A stretch of DNA of 64,000 nt, from positions 1 to 64,000 of the forward strand of contig NC_011026.1 in NCBI RefSeq assembly GCF_000020525.1. The letters are read 5' to 3'. A program made the translations under genes and the position numbers. This document shows positions 7,173-13,699 of this stretch, piece by piece. The notes under the pieces were generated by a model, which searched no databases, had not been told where the DNA came from, and saw only the letters and a program-made list of their open reading frames with translations. This DNA is from Chloroherpeton thalassium ATCC 35110. GTDB taxonomy: Bacteria > Bacteroidota > Chlorobiia > Chlorobiales > Chloroherpetonaceae. Within the stretch, counting starts at the first letter, position 1, and the number at the start of each line of letters is the position of its first letter.

Positions 7173-10100
7173 TCAACCGCCCGCGTCCCGACCGTCCATG
7201 CGGACGGCGACGAGCTTGGAGACGCCTTCTTCTTCCATCGTGACGCCGTAAAGCACGCGCGAGGCTTCCATCGTGCGCTTGTTGTGCGTGACGATGATGA
7301 ACTGCGTCTCTTTGGAAAATTGCCGAAGCAGGTCGGTAAATCTGCCGACATTGGCGTCGTCCAGCGGCGCGTCGACTTCGTCCAGAATGCAAAACGGGCT
7401 GGGCTTGACCAAATAAATCGCAAACAAGAGCGAAATGGCCGTCAAGGTTTTTTCGCCGCCGCTCAGCAGCATGATCGATTGCGGGCGTTTGCCCTTCGGC
7501 TTGGCCATGATGTCGATGTTGGCGTCCAGCGGGTCGGCGGTGTCGTCAAGCATCAAATCGGCCTCGTCGCCCTCGTTAAAAAGCGAGCGGAAAATTTCCA
7601 CAAAGTTTTTGCGAATCTGCGCGAAGGTCTCCGAAAAAAGCTTTTGCGCGGTTTTATTAATTTCCTCAATGGTGTCCAAAAGCTGCTTTTCGGCGCTTTG
7701 CAAGTCGGCCTGTTGCGAGACGAGAAAATCAAATCGCTCTTTTTCCGTCTTGAACTCCTCCAACGCCAATTCATTGACCGCGCCCAAATTTTTCAGCCGC
7801 GTTTTGATTTGCCCGATGCGCTCCGTCGCCGCCGCTTGATCGAACTCGTCATCGTCCGAAAACGCCTTAATTTCAAGCGTTAAATCATATTCGCTTTTAA
7901 TAACGGATTGAAGATTTTCGATTTTCATCTCCAAGCGCGACGCCTGTTGTTGAAATTCAAAAATCATCTGCGACGTGATTTCGCGCTGCCGTTGCGCCTG
8001 TCGCAAATCGGATTCGTTTTTGTTAAAATCGCCTTTGAGCGCGTTGTAGTTAAACTCAATTTCGGCCAAAACCTTTTCGGCGGCGTCTTTTTCGTTGTAA
8101 AACCGGCGAAGGTTTTCGTTCATGGTTTCCAGTTCGCCCGTCAAGCGAAAAATTTCGGCTTGTGCGGCAGCGATTTCGTCGGTGAGGCGTTCTTGTTGGC
8201 GAGCGGCGTTTCGGCTGTCTTGGTCGTTGCGCCAAAGTTCGGTGCGGGCTTTTTCGAGCGCAAACTCGGCGTCTTTTTGCTTCAAATGCCGCTCCTGCAT
8301 GGCGTCGCGCGAGCGCACCAGCTCCGATTCCGCCGAGCGACCCGATTCCTGCGCAAGTTCCAACGCCCGATTTTCGCGCTCCAAATCCTCCGCAAGCGCA
8401 AGGAGCTGCGGCCTTTGCGCGTCCAGTTCCATTTCCAGCGCGGCTTTTTCTTCGGCATCTTTGGCAAGGCGCGAATCCAATTGCCGAATGTCGTTTTCAA
8501 ACGAGGTGAGTTCAAACTGAATTTGCGACCGATGTTTTTCGGCGTCCGTCGTCTCTTTGGCAAGCCGACGAACTTCTTTTTCAAATTCGGCAAGCGAGGT
8601 TCGGTTTAAACCGGTTTGCGCCTCCAGAAGCGCCGCCTCCGTTTTTTTGATGTCCGCTTCAATCTCGGATTTTTCGGCGGACAAAAGTTCCAGCTCTTCC
8701 TTTTTGCCGATGCGCAAGCCCTCGTCTTCCTTCACGCTACCGCCGCGCAAAAATCCCGCGCTGCGATAGCGTTCGCCGGAAAGCGTCGTAAACGAAGCGT
8801 TCGGAAGCGCCGCCGCCAATTGTTGCGCCGCCTCCAGCGACTCGGCGACATAAGCGTTTTCAAGCAAAATCGCAAGCAGCGCGCGAACGGTCTCAGGCGC
8901 ACGAATCACATCCGCCGTCCGATAAACGCCTTCGGGCAACGAGCTTTCGGGCGGCGAATTTTCCTGCTGCGTTTCGCCGCTCGTCGGTTGCAATTTTTCC
9001 AGCGCGACGAACGAGACCTTGCCCTTGCCGGCCTTGCGAAGTTCGGAAATGGCGGCGAGCGCGTCCTGCTCGGTCGGGCAGATGTAATAGGCAAGCGCCT
9101 CGCCGAGCGCAGCATTGACGGCAAGTTTGAATTTCTCGTCGGTGGCGATCATGTCGGAAAGGCAGCCGAGACCGTAGCGCGGCGCGGCGGATTTTTCCAA
9201 ATGGGCGATGCCTTCCGGCAGGCCTTCGTAGCTTTCCAAAAGCGATTTGAGAAAGGCGATGCGATGTTGGCGGGCGTTCAGGTCGGAGCGGAGTTGAAGC
9301 AGACGCTCCTTAGCGGCATCGATGGCCGAACGAAACTCCGCACGGCGCGTTTTGGCTGCTTCCAACTCCGATTCGGCCTGCTTGTGCTGAAACATCAGCC
9401 GTTCAAGCAAGGATCCGTTCTCCAGTTTTTTTGCACTTCGCTCCGAAATGTTGCGTTCGAGCAATATTTTGCGCTCCGCCGCACGTGCTAAATTTTCCTC
9501 TATATTTTCAATTTTTCCCTCGAGCGAACGCTCCCGCAGTTTCGCCTCGGAGATTTTTTTTGAAATCACGGCAAGCTCGCGGCGTTTGTCCTCGATCTCG
9601 TCGCGTTGCTCACGCAAGTTTTGTTCCAATTCCTCATGGGCTTTGCGGGCGTCTTCGTAGGCTTTTTTCTTTTCGTCATAAGCCTTGCGACGCTCTTCCA
9701 GCGAGACCTCATTTTTCTGTTTTTCCACTGCAAGCGTTTCGCACTGAAGTTCAATCTCGCGAACTTCCTTTTCGGCACGCGCAATAGACTCTTGAAGCGA
9801 ATGCAAACGCGCTTTGTTCGAAACCAGCTGCTTTTCCGTTACAACGATGTTTTCGCGCCGCGCGTTAATTTCCTTTTGACTTGTAGAACGCAGCCGCTCG
9901 ATTTCGACAAGTTTCAATTGCTGCGACTCGATGTCCGCCTCCAACTTGGCGATGAGTGCGGTGAGTTCGGATTTTTTCGTCTCGTGAATCGGCAGTTCGG
10001 CCTGAAGCGGTTTTAATTTGGCATCGAGCGCGGCGGCTTGTCGCTCGGCAAGACCGAGTTCAAGCGACAAAAGCTCATCTTTGAGCGTGCGAACTTGCGC

Positions 10101-10736
10101 GGCTTTTTTGGCCTGCCGCTCGAGCGCATTGACCTTTTTTTCCACCTCGTTCACAATATCCTCAACGCGGGCAAGGTCTTGCGAGGTCGTTTCAAGTTTT
10201 TTGTAAGTTTGCTTCCGACGCTGTTTGTATTTGGTGATGCCCGCGGCTTCCTCGAAGAGGCGTCGGCGTTCTTCGGCGTTGTCGCTCAAAATTTGCTCGA
10301 TCATCTTCAGCTCGATGACGGAATAGGCATCGCTGCCCATGCCGGTATCGACAAACAAATCCCAAATATCCCTGAGCCGACAGGGGACTTTGTTCAAAAA
10401 ATATTCGCTTTCGCCGCTGCGATAAAGTCGGCGCGTTAGGGTGACTTCGGAATATTCGGTAGGGAGAATATTTTTGGTATTTTCAATCGTTAGGGAAATT
10501 TCGGACATGCCGAGCGGGCGACGGTTTTTCGTGCCGTTGAAAATCACGTTTTCCATCTTATCAGAGCGCAAGACCGAAGTTTTCTGCTCGCCCAGCACCC
10601 AGCGAATCGCGTCGACGATGTTCGTTTTCCCACAGCCGTTCGGCCCCACAATGGCCGTCAATCCGCTGTCAAACTTCACTTGAACCCGCTGTGCGAAACT
10701 CTTAAACCCAAATAGTTCTAACTTCGATAAATACAT
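7173..10736 (-). CDS. smc: Chromosome segregation ATPase SMC
   Basis: SMC forms the ring-shaped condensin complex, with ScpA and ScpB, that organises and segregates the chromosome. The 1187-residue protein has a Walker A motif GPNGCGKTN at residues 31-39, two long coiled coils rich in Glu, Lys and Arg, a central hinge at roughly 515-680, and a C-terminal ABC signature LLSGGEKTLT near 1090 followed by Walker B ILDEVDAPLDD near 1115. Length and order match bacterial SMC. It converges on gyrA, 72 bases away. The long antisense reading frames in this region reflect its repetitive Glu/Lys/Arg-rich coding sequence. Confidence 0.97.
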   Translation of the reverse strand: MYLSKLELFGFKSFAQRVQVKFDSGLTAIVGPNGCGKTNIVDAIRWVLGEQKTSVLRSDKMENVIFNGTKNRRPLGMSEISLTIENTKNILPTEYSEVTLTRRLYRSGESEYFLNKVPCRLRDIWDLFVDTGMGSDAYSVIELKMIEQILSDNAEERRRLFEEAAGITKYKQRRKQTYKKLETTSQDLARVEDIVNEVEKKVNALERQAKKAAQVRTLKDELLSLELGLAERQAAALDAKLKPLQAELPIHETKKSELTALIAKLEADIESQQLKLVEIERLRSTSQKEINARRENIVVTEKQLVSNKARLHSLQESIARAEKEVREIELQCETLAVEKQKNEVSLEERRKAYDEKKKAYEDARKAHEELEQNLREQRDEIEDKRRELAVISKKISEAKLRERSLEGKIENIEENLARAAERKILLERNISERSAKKLENGSLLERLMFQHKQAESELEAAKTRRAEFRSAIDAAKERLLQLRSDLNARQHRIAFLKSLLESYEGLPEGIAHLEKSAAPRYGLGCLSDMIATDEKFKLAVNAALGEALAYYICPTEQDALAAISELRKAGKGKVSFVALEKLQPTSGETQQENSPPESSLPEGVYRTADVIRAPETVRALLAILLENAYVAESLEAAQQLAAALPNASFTTLSGERYRSAGFLRGGSVKEDEGLRIGKKEELELLSAEKSEIEADIKKTEAALLEAQTGLNRTSLAEFEKEVRRLAKETTDAEKHRSQIQFELTSFENDIRQLDSRLAKDAEEKAALEMELDAQRPQLLALAEDLERENRALELAQESGRSAESELVRSRDAMQERHLKQKDAEFALEKARTELWRNDQDSRNAARQQERLTDEIAAAQAEIFRLTGELETMNENLRRFYNEKDAAEKVLAEIEFNYNALKGDFNKNESDLRQAQRQREITSQMIFEFQQQASRLEMKIENLQSVIKSEYDLTLEIKAFSDDDEFDQAAATERIGQIKTRLKNLGAVNELALEEFKTEKERFDFLVSQQADLQSAEKQLLDTIEEINKTAQKLFSETFAQIRKNFVEIFRSLFNEGDEADLMLDDTADPLDANIDIMAKPKGKRPQSIMLLSGGEKTLTAISLLFAIYLVKPSPFCILDEVDAPLDDANVGRFTDLLRQFSKETQFIIVTHNKRTMEASRVLYGVTMEEEGVSKLVAVRMDGRDAGG

Positions 10737-10764: not shown

Positions 10765-10800
10765 AAAACAAAAAAAGGCCGCGTGCCCCCGACCTTTTTG
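10765..10800 (-). terminator. Second (distal) copy of a duplicated terminator hairpin
   Basis: Read on the reverse strand, an AAAAAGG-type stem with one mismatch pairs with a CCTTTTT arm around a GC-rich loop and is followed by a T7 run. It is nearly the same sequence as the hairpin at 10992-11020. It sits just upstream of smc, so it may insulate smc from transcription coming from the GH2-like gene. Confidence 0.55.
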
Positions 10801-10886
10801 ACTTGACTTTTTATAAGATAACCAAGTGTTCATAACTCAAACAACTTCCGAAAAGGAAAAAGACAAATTCGTTAATGCCGAACAAA

Positions 10887-10970
10887 GCGTTGTCATGCTG
10901 AACGCTGCGAAGCATCCATCCGCTCGGTTACCGTTGGATTCTTCGGCTAAAAAGCCTCAGAATGACATAA
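10887..10970. repeat. Intergenic palindromic repeat element, copy 1
   Basis: The element is bounded by inverted ends TGTCATGCTGA and TCAGAATGACA. On the reverse strand it shares several blocks with the element at 46974-47051: TGTCATTCTGAGG, GAATCCAACG, GGATGGATGCTTCGC and CAGCATGACAACGC. It lies between the two duplicated terminators. No reading frame is visible in it. It looks like a short dispersed, non-autonomous repeat. Confidence 0.65.
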
Positions 10971-10991
10971 GGTTGTTTGTTTGGCAAAAAT

Positions 10992-11020
10992 AAAAAAAGG
11001 CCGCGTATCCCCGGCCTTTT
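10992..11020 (-). terminator. Rho-independent terminator of the GH2-like gene
   Basis: The arms AAAAGGCCG (10995-11003) and CGGCCTTTT (11012-11020) pair perfectly. On the reverse strand the hairpin is followed by a run of Ts. It lies about 95 bases past the stop of the 11114-13699 gene. Confidence 0.75.
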
Positions 11021-11113
11021 CAAATTGAGTGGCATCATAAGCCGTATGTTTGAACCTGACAACATTGGAAATTATTTTTTGATACTGCTTTTAACTTCCT
11101 GTTTTCAAGTGCC

Positions 11114-13699
11114 TTACTGGCCAGCAACATTCCGCCAGTAGTGCATGTAGGCCGTCGTGAAATTGTATTGGTCATACAAATAGAACGAGCCGAGCAAAAT
11201 CACCAAAATCGTGACGAAACCCGCAATGTAAACCTTGTGCCGCGCTTGATTGGTGACAATCGCCAATCCTTTGAAAGTCCTAAAGAACGACATTGCGATG
11301 AACACAATCGAAACCAAGAAAATGATCAATGTAAACTTCGGACTTTCTAAGCGATCGATAAATGCGGCAATAAAAATTAGCACAATCCAGTGAACCGACG
11401 CCCAAGTCCACAGATTTAAAATCTGAGTAAATGTGACCCGTTTTTTTCCAACGAGATACAAAACGGCGTTAATCAACCAACACAGCAGACCGGAAAGCAC
11501 GAAAAACAAAATGCCATAGATGAGCGTCGCCAACGCCGGTTCAAGAATCAAAAAGTTCAACACGCTGCGCATCGAACCGCCGCCAATCACATGCGAAAGC
11601 CATTCTTCTAAAATAGGCGTATCTTTCACGCTGAATAAAATGGCCGCAAGAATTGATCCCCAAAGCAACGAAAGCAGACTGAGCAGCAAAATCGGCTCAA
11701 GCAAGGAGCTAATGCGCATGTCGCGAATATCGATGAACAGATGAAATGGCCGAACCATAGCACGCACAAGATTTTCCCGAATTCGGTGGTTTTCATTCAA
11801 AATGAAAACGAGCGCGGCGGTTAGCAAAGTGGCTACCAAAATGAGTGACGGAGAAAAATCCGGCGCAAATTTTCCAATCGGCGGATTGTAGACGCGCTCA
11901 TCGGCATAAAGCGACTTGACCATGTCGTAACTCATTTTGCGCTCTCTATCCAAGCGCGTAAGGCCATAGCTGGCCAGGTAAATATCCTTGTAATGGGTGC
12001 AGCTAATTGGCGGAATCGCATAATGATAATCGGCCAAAGAATAGACAAATGAGCCAGCAATGAGAGGTTTATTTTTATTTAGCTGCTTGAAATACTTGTA
12101 GTGATCCAGAAAATATTTGGCTTGATATTCCAACGAGCGCGGGTCGCTATATCCGTTGTGATTTCCTGGTTCGGCTGCAGCGCCGTATTCCGTGACGATC
12201 AGCGATTTATCCGACGGCAAAAATTTTGCTGCTGCATCCAACTGCTCTTGCGAAGTGCTGAACGATTCATTGAACAGCGTCGCACCAATAAAATCGCCAT
12301 ATTTATAAAGCGAGCTTTTTACAAAATATTTTGGCGAGAAAAAGGTGAAATTCTTCGAGCGCTCTTTGGCACGCCGATAGAGCTGACTAAGATACTTTTC
12401 CGTGCCTTCATGCTCCAAATCAATTCCCGTTCCGAACCCATACGCAATAACCGATGGATTAAACTTTGTGAGATCGATCAGCTCTCTTAGGTAAAGCTCG
12501 GCATTTTCCGCATAGCTTTTCTGTCCTAATATTTCCGAAGGAATGCCGGATGTGGCTTCGTCCAAAATCACAAAAATGCCAAGGCTATCGCAAAGTTTTG
12601 GCCAAATTGGACTTGGCGCTTCTTTAAACCGAATTGCATTTGCGCCCAATCCCTTTACCAGTTTGATGTCGTTCAAAATATTTTGACGAGAAAGCGCGTT
12701 GGCCGAGGTGTAACCTTCCTCGATCAAATTGACGCCTTTTAGTTCGGCGGGAATACCGTTCAAATGAAAGACGCCGTTTTGAATATCGATCTTTCTAAAG
12801 CCGGTAGCCAGCGAAATGCTATCCAAAAGACTTCCCGACTCGGAACGCAAAACAAACTCCATGCGATAGAGCGCTGGATAAGCCGGACTCCATGTTGTAA
12901 TATGTGGAACGTTAAAATGGGTGGTTTCCTGAAGAATTTGTTCTTGTTCTGGTTTGAATGTAAAAAGATTGGGCTCGTTGAGCACAACGGCTGAATCCAG
13001 CAGCATCCGAAATGAGCAGGTTACTTTTGAGTCCGCCACCATGTTTGGCGAAGAGAGCACATAGGTTTTAATCTTGACGAGCAGGTCGAGGTTCAGGGTG
13101 TCGCTCCGAATTTCATAATTGACATCGGCGTCGTCCAAAATAATTTCCGGCTCAGCCACAAGAAAAATATCCCTAAAAATACCGCCATAATTCTTTTTGC
13201 TATAAGCTTTCGCTTTGATAGGGATGGTGCGAATCGGATCTAAGCGGCTATCCGCCACAATCGTGATTTTATTTTCTTGCCCAAATCGTAAAAACTCGTT
13301 GGCAATATCGACCTGAAATGCCGCGCCGCTGACCGCATGGAACTTGATGAACTGATCATTGACAAAAATCTCGCAGTGGTTGTTAATGCCTTCGCAAATC
13401 AGCTTGAAATGCCGTTTTTCCAACGCACGAGGCAGTTCAACTTTTTTTTCAAAACGAACTTTGCCGCTAAAATCAAATGCGGAAGGAACTGAAATTGTTG
13501 CTTCAGAGCCATCTGGCAAAATAGCCCGCCACTTGCCATCAAGAGGCATCATTTCCCGTGTTTTGCTCTCTGGATAGGCCGAAGGGCTTGTTGAAGCCGC
13601 ATGTCGATTTTCATAGAACAAATACGTTTCGGCAAATCCGCTGACGGACTGGGAAAGAATGAAAAGAAGTGATAAAATGATAACTCTGCGTAATCCCAC
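11114..13699 (-). CDS. GH2-like exported protein fused to a Yip1-like membrane domain
   Basis: The 861-residue product starts with a signal peptide. It then has the three-part plan of glycoside hydrolase family 2 (beta-galactosidase/glucuronidase): a sugar-binding jelly roll (about 50-190, with NYGGIFRDIFLV), an Ig-like sandwich, and a TIM barrel from about 310. The barrel keeps the nucleophile motif VTEYGA near residue 500. Where family members have ...GNE for the acid/base, this protein reads SVIAYGFGTGIDLE, so the catalytic Glu appears to be missing. After about residue 620 there are five or six transmembrane helices resembling a Yip1 domain. A membrane-anchored, perhaps non-catalytic glycan-binding role is inferred. 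It appears to be a single gene with its own terminator. Confidence 0.8.
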   Translation of the reverse strand: MGLRRVIILSLLFILSQSVSGFAETYLFYENRHAASTSPSAYPESKTREMMPLDGKWRAILPDGSEATISVPSAFDFSGKVRFEKKVELPRALEKRHFKLICEGINNHCEIFVNDQFIKFHAVSGAAFQVDIANEFLRFGQENKITIVADSRLDPIRTIPIKAKAYSKKNYGGIFRDIFLVAEPEIILDDADVNYEIRSDTLNLDLLVKIKTYVLSSPNMVADSKVTCSFRMLLDSAVVLNEPNLFTFKPEQEQILQETTHFNVPHITTWSPAYPALYRMEFVLRSESGSLLDSISLATGFRKIDIQNGVFHLNGIPAELKGVNLIEEGYTSANALSRQNILNDIKLVKGLGANAIRFKEAPSPIWPKLCDSLGIFVILDEATSGIPSEILGQKSYAENAELYLRELIDLTKFNPSVIAYGFGTGIDLEHEGTEKYLSQLYRRAKERSKNFTFFSPKYFVKSSLYKYGDFIGATLFNESFSTSQEQLDAAAKFLPSDKSLIVTEYGAAAEPGNHNGYSDPRSLEYQAKYFLDHYKYFKQLNKNKPLIAGSFVYSLADYHYAIPPISCTHYKDIYLASYGLTRLDRERKMSYDMVKSLYADERVYNPPIGKFAPDFSPSLILVATLLTAALVFILNENHRIRENLVRAMVRPFHLFIDIRDMRISSLLEPILLLSLLSLLWGSILAAILFSVKDTPILEEWLSHVIGGGSMRSVLNFLILEPALATLIYGILFFVLSGLLCWLINAVLYLVGKKRVTFTQILNLWTWASVHWIVLIFIAAFIDRLESPKFTLIIFLVSIVFIAMSFFRTFKGLAIVTNQARHKVYIAGFVTILVILLGSFYLYDQYNFTTAYMHYWRNVAGQ

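Follow-up and report, generated by a model that had tools for sequence, protein, structure and literature searches.

The open reading frame at positions 11114 to 13699 (minus strand, GTG start) of the Chloroherpeton thalassium window encodes an 861-amino-acid protein that a domain search calls a GH2 glycoside hydrolase; judged by its residues, it appears to be a non-catalytic membrane protein. The window, the whole stretch of DNA analysed, is the opening 64 kb of a single-contig genome of 3,293,456 bases. The protein belongs to a usually single-copy family found across the Chlorobi/Ignavibacteria side of Bacteroidota. As far as the literature searched shows, this family is undescribed: no relevant paper on a GH2-Yip1 fusion was found, and none on this protein in Chloroherpeton. 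The reading favoured here, and held to be somewhat probable as a whole, is that of an inner-membrane protein whose functional core would be a six-helix Yip1-like module together with an invariant, cytoplasm-facing juxtamembrane segment rich in Arg and Asp. The periplasm-facing GH2 module would have retained its fold and lost hydrolysis, and would serve a housekeeping process in envelope biogenesis or the cell cycle, as a rigid platform for binding or for a partner.

The protein displays a signal peptide, a three-domain GH2 module and six hydrophobic helices, in that order (all coordinates are on the minus strand). The N-terminal signal peptide or export helix (residues 1-22; 13634..13699) is hydrophobic and is modelled as a helix over residues 2-20. 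The GH2 N-terminal beta-sandwich, a sugar-binding-type fold (residues 46-184; 13148..13564), matches Pfam GH2_N (PF02837, 4.8e-10). It is followed by the Ig-like domain (residues 186-303; 12791..13144; PF00703, 1.6e-6), whose strands span residues 186-299 in the model, and by a catalytically degenerate TIM barrel with eight model strands (residues 304-605; 11885..12790; GH2_C, PF02836, 3.4e-13). Pfam, AlphaFold2 and Foldseek all place the three domains in GH2 order. Modelled by AlphaFold2 with 70 homologues, the protein has high confidence over its full length (pLDDT 92.4, pTM 0.88), and the model also shows the C-terminal helices. Its best Foldseek matches are GH2 beta-glucuronidases (8dhe, E 3.5e-42; 6ncw, TM-score 0.85 by target length). 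Sequence comparison with the PDB matched GH2 beta-glucuronidases and beta-galactosidases, which are also best by phmmer.

The six helices, at residues 617-636, 667-690, 721-749, 769-784, 787-816 and 820-846, are of membrane-spanning grade. The first (11792..11851) is a model helix with a hydropathy of 2.31 over 19 residues. Directly after it is a positively charged segment, the conserved juxtamembrane motif of the type RRFRExxxRALxRPYNFFADIRDQRI (residues 637-664; 11708..11791), which is predicted to be cytoplasmic. This succession of helix and charged segment suggests, from hydropathy and model helices, that the GH2 part is periplasmic and the juxtamembrane segment cytoplasmic. The five further transmembrane helices comprise the Yip1-like bundle (residues 665-846; 11162..11707), assigned from Pfam matches of relatives, the model and hydropathy. 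The initial annotation had described a signal peptide, a complete three-domain GH2 module and membrane helices; Pfam, AlphaFold2 and hydropathy confirm this plan, with the helices numbering six.

The fusion to a membrane domain was also correctly recognized. Full-length relatives are found in ∼80 of 296 phylum genomes, so that the GH2-membrane fusion is not due to chance; the 80 loci were retrieved through one motif, and lineages that keep this motif are therefore over-represented. The search for other fusions of this type thus uncovered a family across much of the phylum and not an isolated case. Its full-length members are mostly on contigs named Ignavibacteria, Kapabacteria, Kryptoniota and Chlorobiota. 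Among the families sampled from the window's order, all but one (f2) have full-length relatives; none of the f2 genomes listed has one. A profile of the membrane module only, termed A3, gives strong matches in ∼110 of 394 phylum genomes sampled, nearly always in one copy and within a full-length protein of 820-930 amino acids. It also gives weak matches in shorter proteins. No other GH2 barrel was found in the protein's own genome.

A phylogenetic tree groups the family in a single clade, separate from canonical GH2s, with support 1.0. The sole interloper, L169 (G043:C1:1991800-1995000), is a family member whose frame is split into overlapping open reading frames. It sits in a complete genome, and the break represents either a frameshift or a sequencing error. 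A clear family member is also present on a contig titled Armatimonadetes (L075); it has neighbours in common with a Chlorobiota contig (L076), and the assembly is probably mislabelled.

The catalytic positions set the family apart from GH2 enzymes. On alignment with a solved GH2 protein, the acid/base strand YGFGTGID (residues 420-427; 12419..12442) pairs with W-G-L-H-N-E-V, and the nucleophile strand VTEYGA (residues 502-507; 12179..12196) pairs with LTEYGA. Alignment to solved GH2s places Gly425 at the position of the acid/base Glu, as the initial annotation had held in calling this residue lost, and Thr424 at that of its partner Asn. Column statistics from 132 non-redundant relatives give Glu at column 425 in 9 and Glu at nucleophile column 504 in 39; the preceding Asn is present in 4 and the Asn-Glu pair in 1. 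Both catalytic Glu residues together are found in none, which supports the earlier proposal of a modified, non-hydrolytic protein. By these residues the family would represent an apparently non-hydrolytic pseudoenzyme. The retention of the nucleophile segment, to which attention had also been drawn, holds for this protein, where Glu504 is present, but it is probably not meaningful: the nearest relatives (40-45% identical) have mostly G, H or S at column 504. VTEYGA was for this reason rejected as a sign of function.

Catalytic columns of 70 relatives were also compared with those of 21 canonical GH2s encoded in genomes of this phylum. The canonical proteins retain Asn424, Glu425, Glu504, His326, Tyr360 and Trp553 in 17-19 of 21 cases (Asn424, Glu425, Glu504 and Trp553 in 17), whereas the family does not. 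The fold residues W270, P275, D293, N354 and G374 do not vary within the family and vary little among canonical GH2s. The likeness to GH2 beta-glucuronidases and beta-galactosidases (8dhe, 6ncw, 3fn9) lies in the three-domain fold, the Pfam domains and the structural residues; the family differs in that the acid/base Glu and Asn are gone, the nucleophile is unconserved, the protein is membrane-anchored and the gene neighbours are of the housekeeping type. The dN/dS ratio is 0.05-0.18 in the sandwich/Ig, barrel and membrane parts alike. Together with the degenerate catalytic columns, these values are those of a selected, apparently non-hydrolytic pseudoenzyme family, not of one odd protein. Selection acts on the ectodomain as it does on the other parts, so where present the ectodomain is not dispensable.

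The membrane module had been termed Yip1-like. This finds support in relatives, 13 of 21 of which match Pfam Yip1 (PF04893) at E<=0.01 (best 5.9e-7), and by a relative that consists of the module alone (L173; Yip1 32.8 bits against a Pfam cut-off of 28.6), but no Pfam Yip1 match was obtained for the window protein. When the module was compared directly with the Yip1 protein encoded in the same genome (L172), the result was 0.3%, so that membership is based on the Pfam matches of relatives. In the model and by hydropathy, the five helices after the first transmembrane helix display a Yip1-type five-helix bundle. The family differs from Yip1 in having an extra N-terminal helix with the juxtamembrane motif, and the GH2 ectodomain. 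Transport or receptor roles have been suggested for prokaryotic Yip1 relatives, with no function reported (2019 review, PMC6682643).

Shorter module proteins, about 460-670 amino acids, have no sandwich domain and a much diverged barrel. One such eroded-barrel protein was modelled (pLDDT 86), and its best matches are GH2 glucuronidases and a galacturonidase (E 1.9e-10). These proteins are found in 106 of 146 genomes of one class, here labelled Rhodothermia-like by inference, the weakest matches being partial only. By hhalign, their module and A3 are homologues (99%, E 1.7e-18). In 10 of the loci read, the gene encoding the eroded barrel and module is immediately downstream of ftsZ (L174, L178, L179, L180, L216-L219, L225, L226); in most of these it ends a murC-ftsQ-ftsA-ftsZ run. 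A Pfam scan of two of the ten ftsZ-adjacent genes gave no match. In one genome the module occurs alone, directly upstream of smc (L173).

A further resemblance of the membrane module is to DUF4271 (PF14093), a membrane protein of Bacteroidia. Profile alignment of A3 with DUF4271 gives hhalign 94% and E 1.2e-7 over 174 columns, the E-values being pairwise; three unrelated membrane families used as a control score 0.2-0.6%. The Rhodothermia-like module aligns weakly with DUF4271, at 25%. Given this value and the pairwise nature of the E-values, the link between the module and DUF4271 is a lead, not proof. DUF4271 has no GH2 part, and its gene neighbours differ. Of 40 Bacteroidia-type genomes, 36 carry it once, and the DUF4271 genes (L235-L264) usually adjoin a hemD-like gene, named by eye. 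Nothing functional on DUF4271 was found in the literature.

The family travels with smc, lpx, rodA, hrcA-grpE-dnaJ and ftsZ genes. As in the window, where smc is at 7173..10736 (minus strand), smc follows the gene in 25 of 76 relatives. Genes after smc encode a HAD phosphatase, a PEMT/ICMT-type methyltransferase, LpxB, a DUF374 protein and LpxK. Other lineages have hrcA-grpE-dnaJ or purC-rodA downstream (hrcA in 12 and purC in 11 of the 76). Upstream neighbours are sprA, which is divergent (14), tpiA (8) and a PAP2 phosphatase gene (7). The names lpxB, lpxK, hrcA, grpE, dnaJ, purC, rodA and tpiA were assigned by eye from sequence. Neither recurrent sugar- or polysaccharide-utilization genes nor a constant second membrane-protein neighbour was found among the neighbour clusters of ∼76 relatives. 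Conserved linkage to long housekeeping operons may arise passively, and it is from such neighbours that function is argued here; an envelope role in particular is deduced from them. The module is kept everywhere, the ectodomain is dead by its residues and, in some relatives, also eroded, and the neighbours are housekeeping genes. The membrane module is thus likely the working part, with the GH2 part likely a non-catalytic periplasmic accessory.

Conservation in the family peaks at the juxtamembrane motif (RRFRE...RPYNFFADIRDQRI) and not at the sugar site. This motif carries a mean information of 2.7 bits per residue versus 1.3-1.9 elsewhere, and Arg646, Asp657 and Arg659 are invariant. Two loops on the active-site face of the barrel, after strands 2 and 7, are also conserved (2.4 and 2.0 bits), with the family-specific residues P362, P387, N513, G516 and Y517. 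The second of these is part of a family motif seen in the alignment, N-x-NGYSDPxSxExQA (residues 513-527; 12119..12163), which forms the loop and helix after strand 7; Gly516 is invariant among 70 members, and Asn513, Tyr517 and Ala527 are family-specific. Because of these conserved loops, the main rival to a non-catalytic platform is a periplasmic sugar or glycan receptor. Its pocket would bind an envelope glycan or oligosaccharide, and the first helix would relay binding to the juxtamembrane segment, which would signal or gate the bundle; the conservation of this segment, the highest in the protein, is compatible with such a scheme. Conservation is low in pocket loops 4, 5 and 6, however (0.5-1.0 bits), and the family lacks the His that canonical GH2s have at 326. 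Bacteroidota hybrid two-component and other sugar sensors provide the comparison: by Pfam, the window protein and 21 relatives have no known output domain, and the neighbourhoods of the ∼76 relatives have no recurrent sugar-utilization genes. Moreover, in related proteins that share the membrane module, little or nothing of the GH2 part is left. The sugar-sensor role put forward in the initial annotation therefore finds no direct support, and a receptor is considered unlikely.

Membrane-bound pseudo-glycosidases are a known kind of protein, to which this family may be likened. The 4F2hc and rBAT proteins (SLC3) of animals have GH13-like pseudoenzyme ectodomains that no longer cut sugars and support a membrane transporter. 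A dead glycosidase fold serving a membrane protein makes them the nearest working analogy, but they differ in that the fold is GH13 and not GH2, there is a single membrane helix, the partner is a separate transporter and the proteins are from animals. In a strict version of this analogy, the GH2 module would be a chaperone or anchor for a separate membrane partner encoded elsewhere. The similar plan, a dead glycosidase ectodomain plus a membrane part, and the retention of fold with loss of catalysis are consistent with this; a multi-helix domain is nevertheless present in the same chain and no second membrane-protein gene is a constant neighbour, which makes the strict version improbable.

A modified enzyme is more doubtful still. 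Such an enzyme would catalyse another reaction, with an acid/base residue supplied by a nearby loop (D427 or E429) or with Glu504 as nucleophile in a transfer reaction. In its favour, Glu504 is present here, and 30 of 70 members have Asp or Glu at column 427. Most Chlorobi-type relatives, however, have G, H or S at column 504. Column statistics, used to look for a substitute acid/base residue, revealed no conserved Asp or Glu near strand 4. E380 and D557 are at positions conserved in canonical enzymes as well. That the gene is a former secreted GH2 on its way out, as the lost catalytic residues and the frameshifted copy in G043 might indicate, is hardly credible and was rejected, since purifying selection acts on all parts, frames of 820-930 amino acids are open in ∼110 genomes over many families, and an 832-amino-acid copy persists in a 1.7-Mb genome (L183).

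A wider scheme can be put forward tentatively, one that is plausible and yet slightly more doubted than believed. It consists of one family ancestral to Bacteroidota, about one per genome, that would represent an unrecognized general component of envelope growth or division. It would exist in four states. Chlorobi, Ignavibacteria, Kapabacteria and Kryptonia would have the full GH2 pseudoenzyme with the module, and Rhodothermia-like genomes an eroded barrel with the module, in many cases behind ftsZ; one lineage would have the bare module upstream of smc, and Bacteroidia would have DUF4271. The relatives described above form a readable series in which an enzyme fold wears down and its membrane anchor is retained, and they open the function of bacterial Yip1-like and DUF4271 proteins to testing. 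The residue analysis also removes false GH2 counts from sugar-use predictions in Chlorobi and Ignavibacteria.

The intergenic region between the gene and smc in the window has features of its own. Intergenic gaps in relatives are mostly 0-30 bases, versus 381 bases here, and terminator-like hairpins are present between the two genes, which weighs against assuming their joint transcription. Two of these, near-identical and 222 bases apart (window 10772-11021), flank an insert carrying TTCTTCGGCTNAAAAGCCTCAGAATGAC, and this insert may account for the longer gap. The TTCTTCGGCTNAAAAGCCTCAGAATGAC element has 56 copies in the genome, compared with 0 in a reversed control, and some copies are in tandem at a spacing of 100-200 bases.
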